DNA from: Nitratireductor arenosus
Lineage (GTDB): Bacteria; Pseudomonadota; Alphaproteobacteria; Rhizobiales; Rhizobiaceae
NCBI RefSeq assembly: GCF_009742725.1
Contig: NZ_WPHG01000003.1
Coordinates: forward strand, 1-64,000
DNA length: 64,000 bases
Direction: 5' to 3'
The translations under genes were made by a program, and so were the position numbers. The notes beneath the pieces were generated by a model. It saw only the letters and a list, made by a program, of their open reading frames with translations. It was not told the DNA's origin and made no database searches. Within the stretch, counting starts at the first letter, position 1, and every line of letters begins with the position of its first letter. Of the stretch, positions 2,011-14,343 are shown piece after piece.

Positions 2011-2667
2011 ATGCCCATCGAACTTATCGCATTGGTCGACAACTCCGTTTTCCCGCTCGTCATCTTCCTAGGCGGCGCCTTTCTTGGTGTGGCCGCGGAG
2101 CGTTTGCGTGCGAGCGCAGCCCGCCGCAAATGGCGGGAGCAAAACGGATCGCGACGGGATGGCACGAAATTCACCAACGATGGCCGTGGCGCCGGACCGC
2201 TCGACGCGGCAGACCAGCTCAGGATCGTGATGGAAGCCGAGTTCTCGGTTCAACCGATCCTCAACAAAAGCGAGGCGCGTGTATTCAAGGAACTCGACCA
2301 GATGGTGCTAAGCTGCAATCCATCATGGCAAGTGATGGCGCAGGTCTCGCTGGGCGAAATTCTCCGGTGCCGCAATTCGAAGGCGTTCAGCTGCATCAAT
2401 TCCAAGCGCGTCGATCTTTTGCTGGTCGACGAACATTGCCGGCCACGCCACGCCGTCGAGTATCAGGGGACCGGACATCATCGGGGAACGGCTGCTGCAC
2501 GTGATGCAGTCAAGAAAGAAGCTCTGCGCCGCGCCGGCATCGGCTATCACGAAGTCGTTGCTGGCCAAACCACGCCCTCAGAGCTGAGGCGTCTCGTTGA
2601 ACGCCTCGTGGACAAGCCGAAGACTCTCACCCACGCTAGCGCGGCGGGCGCTCGCCTTTCGGCTTAG
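2011..2667 (+). CDS. Membrane-anchored DUF2726 domain protein
   Basis: A 218-residue protein with one N-terminal hydrophobic helix (about residues 7-29, FPLVIFLGGAFLGVAA), a basic linker, and a C-terminal DUF2726-type domain from about residue 85. The domain shows the usual order: an N-terminal helix (SEARVFKELDQMV), AQVSLGEILR, a SKRVDLLLVDE strand, HAVEYQGTGH, and a helix containing RDAVKKEALRRAGI. DUF2726 resembles restriction-endonuclease-like (PD-(D/E)xK) folds, with the acidic D and E in VDLLLVD...VEYQG as possible active-site residues. That relationship is structural inference. It is common in mobile elements; its role here is unknown. Confidence 0.7.
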   Translation: MPIELIALVDNSVFPLVIFLGGAFLGVAAERLRASAARRKWREQNGSRRDGTKFTNDGRGAGPLDAADQLRIVMEAEFSVQPILNKSEARVFKELDQMVLSCNPSWQVMAQVSLGEILRCRNSKAFSCINSKRVDLLLVDEHCRPRHAVEYQGTGHHRGTAAARDAVKKEALRRAGIGYHEVVAGQTTPSELRRLVERLVDKPKTLTHASAAGARLSA

Positions 2668-2893
2668 ATCGCGTCCGTGACGACGCCACACAATCGGTCG
2701 CCTCGCGCGGCAGCTTTGCGCCCTCGGCTTGGTCGTCCAGCGGTCGAGCTACCAACGGCGGATTTGAGCCCTTCCTCGTCATTAGACTCTTGTCGCAGTT
2801 GGGACACTCTGACCTGCTCTCCTGTATTGTCCTCGCTTTGAGGTTAGCCTGCTCCCAGGATTGGTCTGCTACCCGATGCGCCCTCGGCAGGCG

Positions 2894-3045
2894 CTAGAGT
2901 TTTCCGGCCTTGATCAGCAAGACGGGCTGGCTGCGTGTGCCGATTTCATAAGCGCGGCCGGGACCTTGTTCCCGATCGCGCCGTGTGGCTGCTGCTCGTT
3001 GTAGTCTCCACGCCAAGCCTCCGAACGGCGAAGTTTCGGCAATAC
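2894..3045 (-). pseudogene. IS3-family transposase remnant
   Basis: On the minus strand, codons downstream of about 3045 give LPKLRRSEAWRGDYNEQQPH and GAIGNKVPAA, the hallmark C-terminal region of IS3 transposases. The frame then slips by two bases (an extra GC) and resumes as AYEIGTRSQPVLLIKAGKL before a stop at 2894-2896. The 5' part is missing and a stop lies directly upstream. It is a dead scar of an earlier insertion, different from the copy at the window start. Flanks at 2668-2893 show no convincing gene. Confidence 0.75.
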
Positions 3046-3220
3046 CTAGGGTAGCAACTACTTGCGCACCGCTATCTACGTTCCTATCTTCAAACCCAGC
3101 CGCGACATTATGTCAGCAATGCAGACCAATTAACTGTTGACTTTTCAGATTTCCGCGATATTTTAAGTGTACGCACGCCATTTCAGATATTTACATCAAA
3201 CTCGAGCTATGCCAGTAACA

Positions 3221-3260
3221 AAGGCAGCCGGCACATTGCGCCGACTGCCTTCGTTTGTTT
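3221..3260 (+). terminator. Hairpin with T-rich tail (possible terminator)
   Basis: Arms AAGGCAGCCGGC and GCCGACTGCCTT form a near-perfect stem with one mismatch, followed by CGTTTGTTT. It lies in the gene-free stretch 3046-3429, just before the conjugation-module operon. It may be the terminator of a lost upstream gene, insulating the operon. Nothing else in 3046-3429 looks coding. The AT-rich stretch around 3135-3200 could hold a promoter but no clear -35/-10 pair stands out. Confidence 0.5.
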
Positions 3261-3429
3261 CGAGCTGCGGTATTGCCCAGTCGCTGTCGCTCGGAGCTGA
3301 CCACTAGCCCGAGACCTTCAACAAGTCCGATCTAGTGCGCAGAGGCCCCATGACAAGCTGGGCCTCAAAAGCTCGCACCGGTTAGGTCCTCCCAAGACGG
3401 CCGCGCGGGCAAGCACAGGACCGCGTCAA

Positions 3430-4629
3430 ATGTCTGCTAAGCTATCTTTTTACCCCGTGGGTAACGGGGACATGGCACTTATTACCCTCGACAATGGCCA
3501 GAACATTCTCATCGACGTCAACATCCGCGCCGCTGCAGACGGTGAGGACGAGGATGTCCACGATGTCGCCCAGGACCTGAAGGACAGGCTGCCGCGCGAT
3601 GATGATGACCGTCCCTACGTGGACGCCTTCCTTATCTCGCATCCGGACGTCGACCACGTCAGCGGCCTGCGCAACCACTTCCATCTCGGACCGCCGGACG
3701 AGTACCCGGACGACGACGGCGAAGACCGCATCCTCATCCGGGAGATGTGGTCCTCGCCGATCATTTTCCGCCGCGCCAGCTCCCAGCACAAGCTGGGCGA
3801 TGACGCCAAGGCCTGGGCAAAGGAAGCACGCCGCCGCGTCGCGCTCTTCCGAAAGGAAGGCCTCGAGGGGACCGGCGACGGCGACCGCATCCTCATCCTC
3901 GGCAAGGACCGCGACGGTAAGACCGACGGTATAATGGAGATCGTAAAGCTCCAGGACGAGCTGGTCACCGCTGCCAACCGCGAGGAAGCCGGGCAGTTCG
4001 AAGCGCGGCTCCTCGCCCCGATCTACGTGGATCCGGACCAGGAGGATGCGGATAAGCTCATCGAGCTGCTGTCGAAGAACAACTCCTCCGTCATTCTCAG
4101 GTTCTCCATTAACGCCGACGGCAAGAAGGACGCCTGCCGCTTCCTTTCGGGTGGCGACGCGGGAGTCGAAATCTGGGACCGCCTGTGGCGGCGCCACAAG
4201 GGCAAGAACGAAGACTGGTTCAGCTACGACGTCATGGAAACCCCTCACCATTGTTCGTGGCGTACCCTCAGCCATGATCGCTGGTCGGAAATGGGCGAGG
4301 ATGTGAAGGTCTCGAAGGACGCGCGTAACGCCCTGTCGCAGACGCGCGATGGCGCCCACATCGTCGCCAGCTGCAATCCCATCAAGAAGGAGGAGCCGAA
4401 CCCGCCGCACGAGCGCGCCAAGCGCGAGTATGTATCGATGACGGCATCCGACCGGTTCACCTGCACCGAGGAATACTGGGAGAAGCACTCGCGGCCAATC
4501 GAGTTTTCGATCACACATGCCGGGCCCGCGTTCAGTCACCGGGTAGCTGCCAAGAAGGTGGCGGCGACGATCGGCATCTCAGCGATTCCTACGGTGGCAC
4601 GGGGCCACGGGGCGCGGGGTCGCAGGTAA
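3430..4629 (+). CDS. ComEC-like metallo-beta-lactamase-fold hydrolase of the conjugation module
   Basis: A 399-residue MBL-fold protein, first gene of a three-gene operon. It starts with the typical strand (SFYPVGNGDMALI, then NILIDVN). The metal motif is H71-P-D-V-D75-H76 followed by VSGL, the HPDxDHxSGL form seen in ComEC/Rec2-like MBL proteins. Later ligands are in LSGGDAGVEIW and in the PHHCSW motif (H273, H274). No membrane helix is visible, so it is probably cytosolic. Relatives hydrolyse nucleic acids or nucleotides; substrate here is unknown. The C-terminus is a loose Gly/Arg tail (ARGHGARGRR), unusual for a catalytic domain. Only 7 bases separate it from the E2-E1-JAB gene. Confidence 0.75.
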   Translation: MSAKLSFYPVGNGDMALITLDNGQNILIDVNIRAAADGEDEDVHDVAQDLKDRLPRDDDDRPYVDAFLISHPDVDHVSGLRNHFHLGPPDEYPDDDGEDRILIREMWSSPIIFRRASSQHKLGDDAKAWAKEARRRVALFRKEGLEGTGDGDRILILGKDRDGKTDGIMEIVKLQDELVTAANREEAGQFEARLLAPIYVDPDQEDADKLIELLSKNNSSVILRFSINADGKKDACRFLSGGDAGVEIWDRLWRRHKGKNEDWFSYDVMETPHHCSWRTLSHDRWSEMGEDVKVSKDARNALSQTRDGAHIVASCNPIKKEEPNPPHERAKREYVSMTASDRFTCTEEYWEKHSRPIEFSITHAGPAFSHRVAAKKVAATIGISAIPTVARGHGARGRR

Positions 4630-4636
4630 GACGGCC

Positions 4637-6874
4637 GTGGCAAAGGCTGACATGCAGCGACACGCAGAACATTTCCTGCGTGTTGTCTCCCAATATCCGT
4701 ATGTCGTCACCGCCGGAATCACCGGCGTTGCCGACACTGCGGCGGTCCTGGCACTGGAGCTTGCTGTTGAGCTCCCTAACGCGGCGCGACTGGCTGGGCA
4801 GAGCAACACGGGCGTGCAAGCGGTCGAACCCGTCGAGGTTGTCTTGCGCGGCGATTATCCGCGCCGCTGCCCTGCATTCCGGCTCAGGCATGATTTCCCC
4901 CCGGCGATGCCGCACCTCGCGCCGGGTGACGGCAAGGCACGGCCTGTGCCGTGCCTTGTCGACGGTTCCCCCGATGAGTTCTTCGCTCAGCATGACCTCG
5001 TAGACGCAGGTATCATGGCGATCGTCGACCAGATGTGCCTCTGGTTCAAGCGGGCGGCAATCGGTCGGCTTGCAGATGATGAACACGGCTGGGAGCCAAT
5101 TAATCGCGAACTCGCATTTCACCGGGTCGTTTTTGACCGGGAGGACATCCTTGCCAAGCACATCGGCAAGGACGCCGGCGATGTTTGGCTGCGATCGAAC
5201 TACGTCAAGCGGCTCTTCCAGATCGATGGTGAGAACATCCTTGGCGTCTGGGCCTCGCGCGCAATAGCTCCGAAGAAGGGCAACCTCACGACCTTCCCGT
5301 TCACCTACGAGCTTGCCGATCAACCCGGCACTACCATAACCGCCGTGCTCTGGCCGAACGAGAAGGCAGTTAGCAGGGACATTCTTCCTGACGATGTCGC
5401 TGACATTGGGCAACTCGAGGCAAGGGCCGAGGCCTATGGCATGGGGGACCAGTTCCGGCAGCTCGTGACAGGTCTCGAAAACCGTTTCGCGGACAAATGG
5501 ACGGAGGAGTCGATCCCGGTCGTCGTGATTCTCTGCGTGCGCCGGCCGTTCCGCCTGATGGGACGTACTTCGAGCATCGAGCTCCTCGCCTATTGGTTCA
5601 GGTATCACCGTCCGAAGGCGGCAAAGCAGCCTCCAGCTTTGACCAAGGACAGTCCTGTCTTCGTGGCGAAGCAGATCGACATGCCAACCCCGACCCTCTT
5701 CAGAAACGTCAGCGGCGCCCCAGAACTTCCTGCCACTAGCATCGTCGGCTGCGGCAGCGTCGGATCCAAGCTAGCCATGCATCTCGCCCGCAGCGGCGCG
5801 CACATCTTGGCCGTAACGGACAATGGACTGCTGAGTCCTCACAACATGGCCCGCCACGCGCTGGCCCGGAACCCCGTTCCGATGTTTAAGGCCTCCGAGC
5901 TCGCCGCCGAACTCGGCACACTCGGCGCGGCCCCGTCACCGCATATCGACAATGTCATTGCGGCACTCGGCAACCCCACCGACCTGCGCAGGATCATCCC
6001 CGACGCGACCGGCCTGCTGGTCAACACCACCGCCTCCCGGTTGGTCCGCGAGGCGCTGTCGGCATGCGCTGCTGGCAAGACCAAGGCTAAGGTGGCCGAA
6101 GTTGCTCTCTTCGGCCGCGGCGATGGCGCGTTCGTGTTCGCGGAGGGTCCTGGCGGCAATCCATCCCTCTCACAACTTGAAGCCAGTCTCTATGCGACCG
6201 TGACGAAGCGGGAGCGGCAGCTCCTGTTCGATCCGGACACGGGCCTGACCCAAGTGCAGATCGGCGAGGGCTGTGGATCGCTGACCATGCCGATGACAGA
6301 TGCGCGGCTCTCCGCCATGACGGCCATGGCGACCGAAGAGCTTGCACGTATGGCACCGACCGCCACGGGCCAGGTCGCCATCGGTGTCAGGGACCGTACC
6401 GGGTTGACGACAAGTTGGAGGAGGATGGACGTTCCGGCCTTCCATCGCGTCAAGGTTGACGGCGGTAACTGGAACCTCGACATCGCCGACGATGTCGTTC
6501 GCCGGATCCGTGACGAAATCGCTGCCTACCCCGCGGTCGAGGCCGGCGGCCTGCTGGTCGGCACCTGTAACTCGCGGCTTCGCGCGATCACGGTCGTCGA
6601 TATCCTGCCGGCACCGGAAGACAGCAAGCGCGGCGCGGCCCTGTTTGTGCTGGGCACCAAGGGTATGAAGAAGCTCGTCAGCCAGCGCTACCGGGAGAGC
6701 GGGGGCAGCCTTTTCGACGTCGGTACATGGCACAGCCACCTCGCCGACCAGGGTGCGTCGGCCCTCGACTGGCAGACCGCCAAGGCCCTCGCGGAGGAGC
6801 GGCCACCGCCCGCGGTGCTGCTGATCTGCACGCCCAAGCGATTCCTTGCTATCACCGGTACGAACGGGGCCTAA
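4637..6874 (+). CDS. E2-E1-JAB fusion: ubiquitin-type conjugating/deconjugating protein
   Basis: A 745-residue protein with three domains of the ubiquitin pathway in one chain. Residues about 15-170 look like a prokaryotic E2: FPPAMPHLAP, then the candidate catalytic C106 in PCLVDG, then a WFKRAAIGRL helix. Residues about 360-600 are a ThiF/E1 adenylating domain: glycine loop G371-CGSVG-376, TDNGLLSPHNMARHAL with the arginine finger, and a candidate thioester C546 in GEGCGS. Residues about 620-745 are a JAB/JAMM metalloprotease: an early EAGGLLVG glutamate, then H699-S-H701 and SALD. Known relatives are Cap2/Cap3 of CBASS and the Bil system, but there E1-E2 and JAB are separate proteins. Start is GTG at 4637; no ubiquitin-like protein is encoded nearby. 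Confidence 0.82.
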   Translation: MAKADMQRHAEHFLRVVSQYPYVVTAGITGVADTAAVLALELAVELPNAARLAGQSNTGVQAVEPVEVVLRGDYPRRCPAFRLRHDFPPAMPHLAPGDGKARPVPCLVDGSPDEFFAQHDLVDAGIMAIVDQMCLWFKRAAIGRLADDEHGWEPINRELAFHRVVFDREDILAKHIGKDAGDVWLRSNYVKRLFQIDGENILGVWASRAIAPKKGNLTTFPFTYELADQPGTTITAVLWPNEKAVSRDILPDDVADIGQLEARAEAYGMGDQFRQLVTGLENRFADKWTEESIPVVVILCVRRPFRLMGRTSSIELLAYWFRYHRPKAAKQPPALTKDSPVFVAKQIDMPTPTLFRNVSGAPELPATSIVGCGSVGSKLAMHLARSGAHILAVTDNGLLSPHNMARHALARNPVPMFKASELAAELGTLGAAPSPHIDNVIAALGNPTDLRRIIPDATGLLVNTTASRLVREALSACAAGKTKAKVAEVALFGRGDGAFVFAEGPGGNPSLSQLEASLYATVTKRERQLLFDPDTGLTQVQIGEGCGSLTMPMTDARLSAMTAMATEELARMAPTATGQVAIGVRDRTGLTTSWRRMDVPAFHRVKVDGGNWNLDIADDVVRRIRDEIAAYPAVEAGGLLVGTCNSRLRAITVVDILPAPEDSKRGAALFVLGTKGMKKLVSQRYRESGGSLFDVGTWHSHLADQGASALDWQTAKALAEERPPPAVLLICTPKRFLAITGTNGA

Positions 6875-6876
6875 CT

Positions 6877-7599
6877 ATGGACTTCTTCGACACCTACTCC
6901 CTGAAGGCGCGCCTGTTTCCGGCCATCCTTACCGTGGCGCCAGTGGTAATCCTCTGCCTGCTGTGTGCGAGTTGGGTCGATCCTGGCCTGCCGGAAGCCG
7001 TTGGCGCGGTGGCGGTGATGGTGCTGTTCTTCGCCGCAGCCAACCTAGCCCGCCGCTTCGGCCGTGCCAAAGAGCGCGAGATATTCTCGGACACCGACGG
7101 CCGGCCGCGCAATCCCGAGTTGACGCACGCCGACAGCACTTTCCCCGCGTCACAGAAGGGCCGCTACCGCGACTACCTAGCCGCACAGCTGGGGCTTCCG
7201 GCTCCCACGGCCCACGACGAGCAAGAGCGACCGCGCGACGCCCAGGCATTTTACGACCAGGCTTACGTATGGCTTCGCGAGAACACCCGCGATACCGAGG
7301 CGTTCAAGCTGCTGTTCAATGAGAACATCAGCTACGGTTATTATCGCAATTTGCTTGGCCTGAAGCCGATCGGCATCCTGCTCAACCTACTGTCACTGGG
7401 CGTGGCAGCGGCTATCGTCCACTACCAGCCGGCCTTCGCGTCCCTTAGCAACGGCAAGCTGGTGGCCCTTGGCGGGTTGGCCGCTATCCACTTCGGCTAC
7501 TTCGTGCTCGGCGTAACCAGGAAGGCGATGCTTGACGCATCTGCAATCTATGCGCGCCAGTTGGTGCTTAGCACGGAAGCCCTGATGAAACGAACTTAG
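6877..7599 (+). CDS. Four-helix membrane protein of the conjugation module
   Basis: A 240-residue protein starting at ATG 6877, two bases after the stop of the E2-E1-JAB gene, so part of the same operon. It has two N-terminal hydrophobic segments (about 14-33 and 40-58), a polar soluble middle (60-155, with many charged residues) and two C-terminal segments (about 163-182 and 194-213). No enzymatic motif is visible. In CBASS-type defence operons small membrane proteins often serve as membrane-disrupting effectors; by analogy this could be the effector, or a membrane anchor for the other two proteins. The family is not one I recognise. Confidence 0.65.
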   Translation: MDFFDTYSLKARLFPAILTVAPVVILCLLCASWVDPGLPEAVGAVAVMVLFFAAANLARRFGRAKEREIFSDTDGRPRNPELTHADSTFPASQKGRYRDYLAAQLGLPAPTAHDEQERPRDAQAFYDQAYVWLRENTRDTEAFKLLFNENISYGYYRNLLGLKPIGILLNLLSLGVAAAIVHYQPAFASLSNGKLVALGGLAAIHFGYFVLGVTRKAMLDASAIYARQLVLSTEALMKRT

Positions 7600-7834
7600 C
7601 GCGTAGCTGATTGCATGGCATAGCCACCAGCAAACGGCTGGACATAGAGCTACAGCACCAGAACCCCACAACCTGCTTGCGGCCCGTGAGATGGCAGAGG
7701 GCGCTGGAGCAATCGCTGGCGCAACTCACAGAAGAGAACGCCTAGATTATTGGATACCTTGAGGTATGCAAGTAGTGTTGTAATGACGCTCGACGCATTG
7801 CGATTCGACAAGTTTCGACTAGGAGGGCGCGGCA

Positions 7835-9307
7835 TTGGCAAAGTTGCTTTTGATCTTCTCCGATGGGACCGGTCAGGTCGGAGGACTTCGTCCTGACCAG
7901 CGGCTATCGAACGTCTACAAAATGTATCGTGCGATGCGGCCCGGCCCAGACTCTCCAATCAGGCCGCACCAGCAAGTCGCCTTCTACGACCCTGGTCTAG
8001 GAGCCGGTGAAACCGATGGACTCAGCTTCCGCAGAATTAGGAATACGCTTTCTGCCGCAGTGGGGACGGGTATCGATCAAAATGTCATAGATTGCTACGC
8101 GGCGATCATTGCCAACTACCAGCCCGGCGACAAAATCTGCCTCTTCGGCTTCAGTCGAGGAGCTTACACCGTCCGCTCGCTAGCGAACGTCCTGAACCTC
8201 TGTGGCGTACCAGCTAAAGGAGTCGACGGGGGACCCGTGTCGCGCTATGGGCCAAAACTGCGCAAGATAGCTTCGGACGCTGTCCGGTACGTTTACAATC
8301 ACGGAGCTGGTTCCAAGCGGTCGCTCTATGAGGAAGAGCGCGAAGAAAAGGCTAGGCGCTTTCGAGCCAGATACGGCTCTGAGGGCGTTGGCGCGGACGG
8401 CGAACCGCAAGGCAACGTTCAGCCCACCTTCATCGGCGTATTCGACACGGTGGCGGCACTTGGTAGTCGACAGGCTACACTCTTAGCTGCCGTCGGCTTC
8501 TTTCTGCTCATTCTGTTGACTTGGTGGATTTCAACCGTGGCATCGTGGTGGATTACAGCGTTGTTTGCACTGGTTCCGTTGGCGGCCGCATACTGGACGA
8601 TCGTAGTGATGGCTGGGCAAGTGAAATACTTCTTCAAAGACCCAGATCGACGCGTGCAGCTCTGGAACCCATTCGACTGGATCGCGATCGCGCGGCATGG
8701 ACACCTCGCATGGTGGTCGGGAAAGAATTACGACCGCTATGTCGACCGCGAGGTTCGCTTTCTGCGCCATGCGCTCGCGATCGATGAGGCACGCCGGAAG
8801 TTCCCTCGTGTGTCTTGGGGCCGGAGCGTTGATGTCGATTGGAACAACAAGCGGGGCAATCACGATTGGATGAAGCAGGTGTGGTTCGCTGGCAATCACT
8901 CCGATATCGGCGGAAGCTATCCTGAGGAAGAATCGCGGCTTTCCGACATCGCACTCCAATGGATGATAGACGAGCTGAAAACAGCGATCCCAGAAATTCA
9001 GATAAGAGCGGAAATGCTCGTCACCTCGCCCGATCCCCTCGGGCTCCAGCATGACGAACGCGAAGGCGTGTTGGGCAGCCAACCTGCGCTGCTTCGTTGG
9101 TTGACCCGCGATCGCTTGACGTGGACCACGCAGGTGCGGAACATTGAGAACCAGGTGACGCTGCATCCTTCGGTCAAGGCACGCTTTGAAGCTGACGCCG
9201 TTCCGCAGATGGGGGAAGTAAAGGCCTACCGCCCCTCCAACCTGCACAACCATTCCCAAGTGGCCAAGTTCTACAGCGAAGACCTAGAGGCTCACAATCC
9301 TAGCTAA
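7835..9307 (+). CDS. DUF2235 / Tle1-like alpha/beta hydrolase
   Basis: A 490-residue protein of the DUF2235 family, the fold of T6SS phospholipase effector Tle1. The N-terminus has the family's LLLIFSDGTGQ motif and the nucleophile elbow GFSRGA with S107. A later NHSDIGGSYPEE motif supplies an acidic residue. A pair of hydrophobic segments lies at about 210-265 (FFLLILLTWWISTVA and ITALFALVPLAAAYW), so it may associate with membranes. Start is TTG at 7835, supported by AGGAGGG at 7821-7827. No T6SS genes are near. It sits 235 bases after the conjugation module and may be a separate defence or toxin gene. Substrate (lipid or other ester) is inferred from the family. Confidence 0.8.
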   Translation: MAKLLLIFSDGTGQVGGLRPDQRLSNVYKMYRAMRPGPDSPIRPHQQVAFYDPGLGAGETDGLSFRRIRNTLSAAVGTGIDQNVIDCYAAIIANYQPGDKICLFGFSRGAYTVRSLANVLNLCGVPAKGVDGGPVSRYGPKLRKIASDAVRYVYNHGAGSKRSLYEEEREEKARRFRARYGSEGVGADGEPQGNVQPTFIGVFDTVAALGSRQATLLAAVGFFLLILLTWWISTVASWWITALFALVPLAAAYWTIVVMAGQVKYFFKDPDRRVQLWNPFDWIAIARHGHLAWWSGKNYDRYVDREVRFLRHALAIDEARRKFPRVSWGRSVDVDWNNKRGNHDWMKQVWFAGNHSDIGGSYPEEESRLSDIALQWMIDELKTAIPEIQIRAEMLVTSPDPLGLQHDEREGVLGSQPALLRWLTRDRLTWTTQVRNIENQVTLHPSVKARFEADAVPQMGEVKAYRPSNLHNHSQVAKFYSEDLEAHNPS

Positions 9308-9454: not shown

Positions 9455-10348
9455 CTATTTGTGCGCCATCAGCCAGTTTGTGGCTTCGCTGGCTTTGGAC
9501 GCAGCGGTGAACACTGCGCGCTTGTCGGTTTTGAGGACCTTCAACCAACTCGCGATGTAGGATGCGTGATCGGCACGCGGCTCGGGTGTGATGGCAAGCT
9601 CGCTGCAGAGGAAGGCTGCCCCGAGCTCGGCGACCAATTCCTCCATGGCGTAGCTGTTGGAACCGAACCGGCCGGTGAGATCGCGGGCGAGCCGGGATTT
9701 TGCGCCCGACCAATGGGTGAGTTCATGACATAGAGTCGAATAGAAACCTTCGGCGGGCGTCGTTGTGTCAGTACCGGTGAAGCGGTTGCGGTCCGGCATG
9801 CGGATGACATCGGCTGAAGGGATGTAATAGGCGCGATCACCGCTCTCCTCGATCACGGCGCCGGTGGCTCGTGCAAATGCTTCGGCGCGGGCGATCGGAT
9901 CGAAAGCCGGTTCGTCCGGCAGATCGGGCGCGGGTTCGAGCTCGAAGTCTTCGACCTGCGCGGCGTTGAAGACGTGACTGGCCCGAGCAATAAGTCGTTC
10001 GGTCGTTCCGCCCTCGCTCGTAACCTCATTCGTCTCCTCGATCTCGAACGTCTTGTAGAACACGACCAACGAGGACTTTTCGCCCTTGCGAACCTGGCAG
10101 CCGCGCTGCTGCCATTGCCGGTAGGTGCCCCAGAGATGCGAGGGATAATCGGAGGCAAGCGCCGATATCCAAAGCGAGACGATGTTGACGCCATTGTAGG
10201 GATTGCCCGATGCGATATTGGCCGGGCGTTTCATCGATCCGCCCATGTCCCTGATCCAGGGCAGGCGGAACTCGCCGGCGGTTTCGATCGCGTCGACGAT
10301 CCGGTTAGTGATCTCCTGGTGGACATCGAGTTTCTGATTGCGGGGCAT
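9455..10348 (-). CDS. ardC: ArdC-like antirestriction protein
   Basis: A 297-residue protein with an N-terminal ArdC single-stranded-DNA-binding domain (PWIRDMGGSMKRPANI, NPYNGVN, GTYRQWQQRGCQVRKGEK) and a C-terminal metallopeptidase-like domain with H208-E209-LT-H212-W. ArdC proteins protect incoming conjugative DNA from host restriction, and family members bind ssDNA. The start is the ATG at 10348 with GGAG a few bases upstream; a longer in-frame extension exists but has atypical composition. It is encoded on the minus strand in the backbone of the mobile element, a usual place for ardC. Confidence 0.88.
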   Translation of the reverse strand: MPRNQKLDVHQEITNRIVDAIETAGEFRLPWIRDMGGSMKRPANIASGNPYNGVNIVSLWISALASDYPSHLWGTYRQWQQRGCQVRKGEKSSLVVFYKTFEIEETNEVTSEGGTTERLIARASHVFNAAQVEDFELEPAPDLPDEPAFDPIARAEAFARATGAVIEESGDRAYYIPSADVIRMPDRNRFTGTDTTTPAEGFYSTLCHELTHWSGAKSRLARDLTGRFGSNSYAMEELVAELGAAFLCSELAITPEPRADHASYIASWLKVLKTDKRAVFTAASKASEATNWLMAHK

Positions 10349-11992: not shown

Positions 11993-12559
11993 ATGAAGCG
12001 CATTGCCTACATCCGCGTGTCGACCGCCGAGCAGCGGCCCGACCGCCAGATTGACGGACTGAAACGGATCTCCGACGAACTGCATATCGAGACGCTCTCC
12101 GCCGTTGCCCGGCGGCGGCCTGTCTATGAGACGGTGGTTGCCCGCTTGGGGCCTGGTGACACCCTGGTCGTGTGGTCGCTGGACCGGGCGTTTCGCTCGG
12201 CGCGCGATGCGCTGAATGAGTTGCATTCCCTGCAAAGCGGCGGGGTGCAATTTCACATTGCCGATCTCAATCTCGATACGGCGACGCCGCACGGCAAGCT
12301 GACCTTCACGCTGATGAGCGCGGTCGCCGAATTCGAGCGCGATGTTCTGATCCAGCGCACCAAGGAAGGCATCGCCGCCGCCCGCGCCCGCGGCAAGCGC
12401 ATCGGGCGCCCGCCCCTCTTATCCGAGCGGCAATTGAGTGAAGCACGCGAACGGGTCGATGGCGGCGAGACCCTCGCAGCGGTTGCCGATGATCTTGACG
12501 TCTATGCCTGGACACTTTCACGGGCGTTGAAGCGCGGTGTGGTGGATACGCTCCTTTAG
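11993..12559 (+). CDS. Serine recombinase (resolvase/invertase family)
   Basis: A 188-residue small serine recombinase. The N-terminal catalytic domain has YIRVST with nucleophile S10, then LVVWSLDRAFRS and an E-helix with FTLMSAVAEFERDVLIQRT. The C-terminal domain is a short helix-turn-helix (GRPPLLS...LAAVADDLDVYAWTLSRALK). Length is normal for resolvases and DNA invertases. It could resolve dimers of the element or invert a segment. No matching inverted crossover sites were found by eye. A strong hairpin terminator follows directly. Confidence 0.88.
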   Translation: MKRIAYIRVSTAEQRPDRQIDGLKRISDELHIETLSAVARRRPVYETVVARLGPGDTLVVWSLDRAFRSARDALNELHSLQSGGVQFHIADLNLDTATPHGKLTFTLMSAVAEFERDVLIQRTKEGIAAARARGKRIGRPPLLSERQLSEARERVDGGETLAAVADDLDVYAWTLSRALKRGVVDTLL

Positions 12560-13871: not shown

Positions 13872-14081
13872 ATGAGCTCCATCGAGACTATCAGCATCGA
13901 TATCTACCCGTGGGCCGCGCCGACCGAGGCGCAGCGCGCCTGGTTCGATGCGCTCTCGTCCGAAGAAAAGCGCGAAGTCCTGCGCGCGGCGCTTGAGGAA
14001 GGCTTTGAAAGCCCTGCCTCGCAAAAATCGATCGACGACATCATCAAGGAGGCGCGCGCCGATCTTTCGCATGCGCCATAG
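13872..14081 (+). CDS. ParD-like antitoxin
   Basis: A 69-residue protein just upstream of a ParE/RelE toxin and overlapping it by 11 bases, the usual antitoxin position. The N-terminal part (SIETISIDIYPW) could form the DNA-binding strand; the C-terminal helix (KSIDDIIKEARADLSHAP) would wrap the toxin. It is not a classical ParD ribbon-helix-helix sequence, so the family is assigned by position and size. Expected to neutralise the toxin and repress the operon. Confidence 0.65.
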   Translation: MSSIETISIDIYPWAAPTEAQRAWFDALSSEEKREVLRAALEEGFESPASQKSIDDIIKEARADLSHAP

Positions 14082-14343
14082 GCTGACGCAGCGCGCGGAG
14101 CGCGACCTCAAGGATATCTACCGCTACACCTTCGAGACTTTCGGCCACAAACAGGCCGAGCGATATTTGCGCGAACTCGACGCCGTCTTCGAGCTGATCG
14201 CCGACCAGCCCGGAATTGGCCGCGTCTATGAAGGTCGCACACAGCTTTTCGTGCACGGCAAGCACATCATCCTCTACCGGCAAGCGGGTGGACACGTTAC
14301 CATCGGCCGCGTCTTCCATGGCGCGCAGTCGCGCCCGCGCTGA
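14071..14343 (+). CDS. parE: ParE/RelE-family toxin
   Basis: A 90-residue toxin of the ParE branch of the RelE superfamily. It shows the family pattern: RLTQRAERDLKDIYRYTFETFG at the start, then AERYLRELDAVFELIADQPGIGR, and a C-terminal strand pair with HIILYRQAGGHVTIGRVFHGAQ. ParE proteins poison DNA gyrase. The start is ATG 14071, inside the antitoxin's last codons. It probably stabilises the mobile element by killing cells that lose it. Confidence 0.85.
   Translation: MRHRLTQRAERDLKDIYRYTFETFGHKQAERYLRELDAVFELIADQPGIGRVYEGRTQLFVHGKHIILYRQAGGHVTIGRVFHGAQSRPR

Follow-up and report, generated by a model that had tools for sequence, protein, structure and literature searches.

The three genes at positions 3430-7599 of the window (the whole analysed stretch, 64,000 nucleotides of contig NZ_WPHG01000003.1 of Nitratireductor arenosus) form a genuine three-gene operon. 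With moderate confidence, this locus is read as a 6A-MBL anti-phage operon that is built like type II CBASS, in which a ComEC-like metallo-beta-lactamase (MBL) hydrolase takes the place of the CD-NTase. The gene set, the intact catalytic residues, an invariant tail glycine that goes with the conjugation gene, and the exchange of membrane-acting genes in the third position are established at the sequence level. For this locus, we infer MBL conjugation, trimming of its extension, the MBL substrate, effector activation, and phage protection.

In the proposed cycle, the JAB domain of the second protein would trim a short extension of the MBL behind Gly394. This glycine would be adenylated by the E1 domain, and the MBL would be passed via the E1 and E2 cysteines onto a target amine. 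The JAB domain could detach the conjugated MBL again, and this cycle of conjugation and removal would govern when the MBL is active. In an infected cell, active MBL would switch on the product of the third gene; this membrane protein would damage the membrane, and the cell would release no phage. If this is true, Cap2-like conjugation is a transferable control module that serves both nucleotide cyclases and MBL hydrolases, at least two enzymes of unrelated kinds, and the exchange of third genes suggests membrane damage as the common output.

Gene anatomy and family membership

The first gene (3430..4629, forward strand as are the other two) encodes the MBL-fold protein of 399 amino acids, which matches the NCBIfam 6A-MBL enzyme model NF058524 with 414.8 bits against a cut-off of 220. 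The second gene (4637..6874) has a GTG start and encodes a 745-amino acid protein that joins E2, E1, and JAB domains; it matches the 6A-MBL cap2_3 model NF058523 with 567.2 bits against a cut-off of 320. The third gene (6877..7599) encodes a four-helix membrane protein of 240 amino acids, the predicted effector, which belongs to a family termed TM-A here. The gaps are 7 bases between the first two genes and 2 bases between the last two, exactly as given in the first-pass annotation of this DNA. The annotation also proposed a search for the trio in other genomes. The three genes are found together at other loci, so its caveat that the homologues might never occur together does not apply.

NCBIfam names both enzymes as components of an "anti-phage 6A-MBL system", in agreement with the earlier proposal of a ubiquitin-like conjugation family with a probable anti-phage role. 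The designation was evidently taken from row 6a of Iyer, Burroughs and Aravind 2006, in which a triple-module E2-E1-JAB gene stands nearly always beside a specialised metallo-beta-lactamase, usually as two genes (PMC1779556). The window has the family MBL, the E2, E1, and JAB order in a single chain, and the two genes adjacent on the same strand; it differs from the 2006 description by its third, membrane-protein gene. The match to both NCBIfam models far above their cut-offs, together with operon type 6a, means that this kind of system is already known and is not an uncatalogued arrangement. No paper under the name 6A-MBL and none on the MBL tail was found in the open literature, nor was the original source from which NCBIfam took the name. 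Type 6a has been listed since 2006 yet is mechanistically blank as far as was found, partly for want of a nameable ubiquitin-like partner. New in this analysis are the reading of the MBL as the likely modifier, that of the third gene as an effector slot, and the observed pairing of TM-A with a different MBL on prophage contigs.

In samples of the phylum (399 genomes) and of the family (398 genomes), members above the cut-offs occur in 7 and 17 genomes, respectively. Further members were found on plasmids of Bacteroidota and of cyanobacteria.

The triple protein contains all the parts of a conjugation and deconjugation machinery. Its E2 domain (residues 27-174, 4715..5158, forward strand) carries H93 and C106 and matches Pfam Prok-E2_A with 70.1 bits (cut-off 25). 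The E1 adenylation domain (about residues 345-590, 5669..6406) matches ThiF with 35.6 bits (cut-off 28.1) and the Cap2 profile 7tsx with an E value of 6.2e-9, and its noted residues are G371-G376, D395, R406, K418, and C546. The JAB/JAMM domain (about residues 607-731, 6455..6829) is detected by the PADLOC JAB model with 54 bits, while Pfam Prok-JAB reaches 17.8 bits, under its cut-off of 25. The fusion of the three domains in one chain, as first annotated, is thus borne out by these models. In an alignment of homologues, 37 of 37 keep H93 and C106 of E2, G371, G373, G376, and C546 of E1, and E635, H699, H701, S708, and D711 of JAB, among which are all the catalytic positions that had been picked out by eye (C106, the glycine loop 371-376, C546, and H699/H701).

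Structure prediction of the 745-residue protein, which the annotation had proposed as a check, also agrees. The AF2 model is of modest quality (pLDDT 64, pTM 0.50). Its best PDB match by Foldseek is the CBASS Cap2-CdnD02 complex (E. cloacae Cap2, 7to3, E value 5e-19); its JAB part matches Cap3 (9ild, E value 1.7e-5), and BubCD is also among the matches.

The operon resembles type II CBASS in its Cap2-like E2-E1, its Cap3-like JAB, a partner enzyme with an invariant C-terminal glycine, and a swappable membrane-acting effector. In contrast to type II CBASS, an MBL stands in place of the CD-NTase, no nucleotide signal is known, and Cap2 and Cap3 are fused, so that a separate Cap3 is replaced by a JAB domain at the C-terminus of the Cap2-like protein. 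With Bil and Bub systems, the operon shares the logic of E1, E2, and a JAB-type deubiquitinase; unlike them, it has no separate beta-grasp protein, and its domain order and partner genes are different. No CD-NTase model of Pfam, NCBIfam, or PADLOC matched the four genes at 3430-9307, and no gene for a separate ubiquitin-like protein of the Bil type was found between 3430 and 7599 among the open reading frames or by Pfam. The statement in the first annotation that no ubiquitin-like protein is encoded overlooks the glycine tail of the MBL, which is itself likely to be conjugated.

The glycine tail of the metallo-beta-lactamase

The active site of the MBL is ComEC-like, with the HxDxDH motif at H71-x-D73-x-D75-H76 and further residues D243 and H273/H274. 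H71, D75, and H76 are kept in 35 of 35 aligned sequences and D73 in 33 of 35. A predicted structure from an eight-sequence alignment had a pLDDT of 32 and was set aside.

The MBL of the window ends in TVARGHG followed by ARGRR. The last glycine of the first part is Gly394 (codon 4609..4611, forward strand), the predicted site of adenylation and conjugation, and the five residues behind it (4612..4626) are the extension that JAB is predicted to trim. Gly394 is invariant in two alignments, one of 35 sequences and one of 21 diverse sequences. In the latter, its column is one of only 23 invariant columns, the others of which include the metal ligands, and conservation in the tail around it is otherwise sparse. 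Tails of the operon MBLs close in HG, RAG, YG, or GFG, either at the stop codon or before a short variable extension. Glycine is the final residue in 20 of 39 operon MBLs, and an extension follows it in about half. The motif [HYFA]G lies within the last 11 residues of all 39 operon MBLs, compared with 112 of 670 background open reading frames of at least 250 amino acids; the motif was defined only after the tails had been noticed, so its P value overstates the case and the Gly394 alignment is the fairer test. Among 22 MBLs that are not conjugation partners, the motif occurs once (locus L127). These counts describe loci gathered mostly with 6A-MBL family models or queries, with gene starts set mechanically and with interrupted MBLs at L148, L142, and L139.

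In type II CBASS, the C-terminal glycine or alanine of the CD-NTase is conserved only in operons that have Cap2 and Cap3, and this residue is conjugated; conjugation depends on it, as does defence against some phages (Jenson et al. 2023, PMC10097602). In the operon of the window, the conserved residue is on the MBL and not on a CD-NTase, and five residues follow it. The invariant tail glycine and the CD-NTase precedent together make the MBL the likely conjugated protein. It is probably the ubiquitin-like modifier of its own operon, attached via Gly394, and the invariant glycine offers a directly testable prediction at one residue.

Two other explanations of the tail can be weighed against the same data. 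ThiS/MoaD-like proteins are common across bacteria, and the E2-E1-JAB protein could serve such a ubiquitin-like protein encoded elsewhere in the genome, with the MBL as its target or as an independent nuclease effector. Separate ubiquitin-like proteins are indeed encoded in operon types 6d and 6e. This explanation is distinctly unlikely: the tail glycine is invariant in MBLs that accompany the conjugation gene and wanting in other MBLs, and in the complete loci that were sampled, the MBL gene lies next to the E2-E1-JAB gene and reads in the same direction. Alternatively, the glycine could bind E1 or JAB non-covalently, as a regulatory tail that keeps the complex together. The residues past the glycine in about half of the MBLs would fit such a tail, as would the fact that conjugation of the MBL is deduced by comparison. 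However, ubiquitin-type precursors show just this pattern of an exact glycine with a short, variable extension behind it, which argues against a purely non-covalent role; the E1, E2, and JAB sites are intact, and the CBASS precedent also favours conjugation. A non-covalent tail is therefore considered very improbable.

The third gene as a candidate effector slot

The TM-A protein of the window has four hydrophobic segments, as its annotation as a four-helix membrane protein implied, and none of the family models of Pfam, NCBIfam, or PADLOC matches it. The neighbourhoods of 40 6A-MBL loci were surveyed, the third gene being whichever gene follows E2-E1-JAB or immediately adjoins the pair, and tblastn matches were counted. 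TM-A occupies the slot in 16 loci, two other membrane-protein families (TM-B and TM-C) in 5 each, and a patatin-like phospholipase in 11 (60-71 bits in Pfam for the five tested). A membrane protein or a patatin is thus present in 37 of the 40 loci. Of the remaining three, L051 has only a second MBL, L006 has no third gene, and L062 has an unrelated one. The third gene is interrupted at several loci, and the placement varies at three, where the membrane gene is upstream (L148), convergent (L060), or separated by a second MBL (L125).

On the tree of E2-E1-JAB, the class of the third gene changes at least 11 times, against a minimum possible of 3, which indicates that the conjugation gene is retained as third genes come and go. 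This pattern suggests an effector role for the third gene, in which different membrane-attacking proteins can replace one another.

The roles could also be reversed, with the MBL as the killing effector (a nuclease) and the membrane protein as a sensor that detects phage entry or stress on the envelope. MBL proteins belong to other defence systems, with weak PADLOC matches here to Avs1a, LmuA, and RTasMBL, and outside 6A-MBL operons the intact TM-A copies that could be judged adjoin an MBL. Against this, a patatin-like phospholipase in the third slot is more easily understood as an effector than as a sensor, and the MBL is constant whereas the third gene swaps. The reversed assignment is rather unlikely.

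TM-A and TM-C may be distantly related, with an hhalign value of 90% for the N-terminal part. A relationship of TM-A with TM-B was ruled out (hhalign 2.8%). TM-A was also compared with S_4TM (PF18159), the four-helix effector of CBASS; there was no Pfam match, and hhalign gave a probability of 0.4% with one S_4TM member. A search for a credible PDB match for the TM-A family found none. The patatin-type third genes match no PADLOC model, and by sequence they have only weak PDB matches, to patatin-fold proteins.

Some loci depart from the common layout in other ways. An additional distinct MBL gene follows the effector gene at L004:12969-14000, L140:8615-9556, L141:3574-4488, L146:8268-9167, and L147:4497-5315. 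In two Mesorhizobium loci (L007:4385-6250 and L008:10950-12814), the E2 part is a separate open reading frame. In L007, E1, JAB, and the membrane protein share one continuous frame, which is either a true fusion or a frameshift.

Genomic surroundings and the two-gene cassettes

The operon lies among mobile-element genes. It is flanked on one side by a MobC-like gene, a relaxase, and a DUF2726 gene (2011-2667, forward strand), and on the other side by genes for the anti-restriction protein ArdC (9455-10345, reverse strand) and a serine resolvase (11993-12559, forward strand), with a ParE-type toxin gene (13948-14343, forward strand) as further mobile-element cargo. The first annotation placed it on a mobile element with an HNH protein and ArdC; the MobC-like gene, relaxase, ArdC, and resolvase agree with this placement, but the HNH protein was not located.

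A gene for a Tle1-like (DUF2235) alpha/beta-hydrolase with hydrophobic segments (7835..9307, forward strand; PF09994, 216 bits) starts 235 bases downstream of the membrane-protein gene, and its membership in the operon is uncertain. Only one other 6A-MBL locus, in Hymenobacter, has a DUF2235 gene nearby (L062:8794-9861). A fixed fourth operon member is unsupported by this single case, and the gene could be a second membrane-acting gene or a chance neighbour.

Relatives of the operon are often accompanied by regulators of the immune type. Divergent WYL regulators resembling CapW adjoin eight related loci, HTH and ImmA/IrrE peptidase genes resembling CapH and CapP adjoin at least three, and two have beside them a CapK-like HATPase protein gene with a second small gene, CapS-like, behind it. 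No immune regulator was found upstream of the window copy, where about 760 bases (2668-3429) have no convincing open reading frame. This interval, in which relatives often have a regulator, may contain a decayed one.

These surroundings bear on whether the operon serves phage defence at all, or instead the maintenance of the element or a general stress response. Its position among mobile-element genes and its absence from all three of the other genomes searched in the genus would suit the latter, and Bub, a related pathway, is not known to protect against phage. The family is nevertheless called anti-phage by NCBIfam, and its relatives have the CapW-like, CapH-CapP-like, and CapK-like immune regulators. 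A role outside defence is accordingly judged unlikely, and an anti-phage function is preferred.

TM-A is also found away from the conjugation gene. On plasmids and prophage contigs, it adjoins a different ComEC-like MBL, and E2-E1-JAB is absent. Of the 11 IMG/VR contigs found with TM-A, 10 carry an adjoining MBL, and the eleventh begins at the TM-A gene. The MBL of these cassettes is the PADLOC candidate PDC-M48B (323 to 453 bits). The same membrane family adjoins an MBL in both arrangements, but the cassettes differ from the window in having neither an E2-E1-JAB gene nor the tail glycine on the MBL. This contrast resembles that of CBASS with and without Cap2 and Cap3. On this analogy, it is tentatively proposed, at somewhat less than even confidence, that a metallo-hydrolase rather than a beta-grasp protein is the modifier, and that immune systems of MBL plus membrane effector form a wider class, with 6A-MBL as the branch controlled by conjugation and with a simpler branch on prophages. 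Searches of viral contigs with the MBL and with an E2-E1-JAB alignment found no 6A-MBL operon. Two-gene cassettes of MBL and TM-A were seen at L153-L157 and L159-L163, and also at L052, L053, L056, and L059. At L006:4320-6214, a cassette of an MBL and a membrane protein lies about 3 kb upstream of the 6A-MBL pair that has no third gene of its own.
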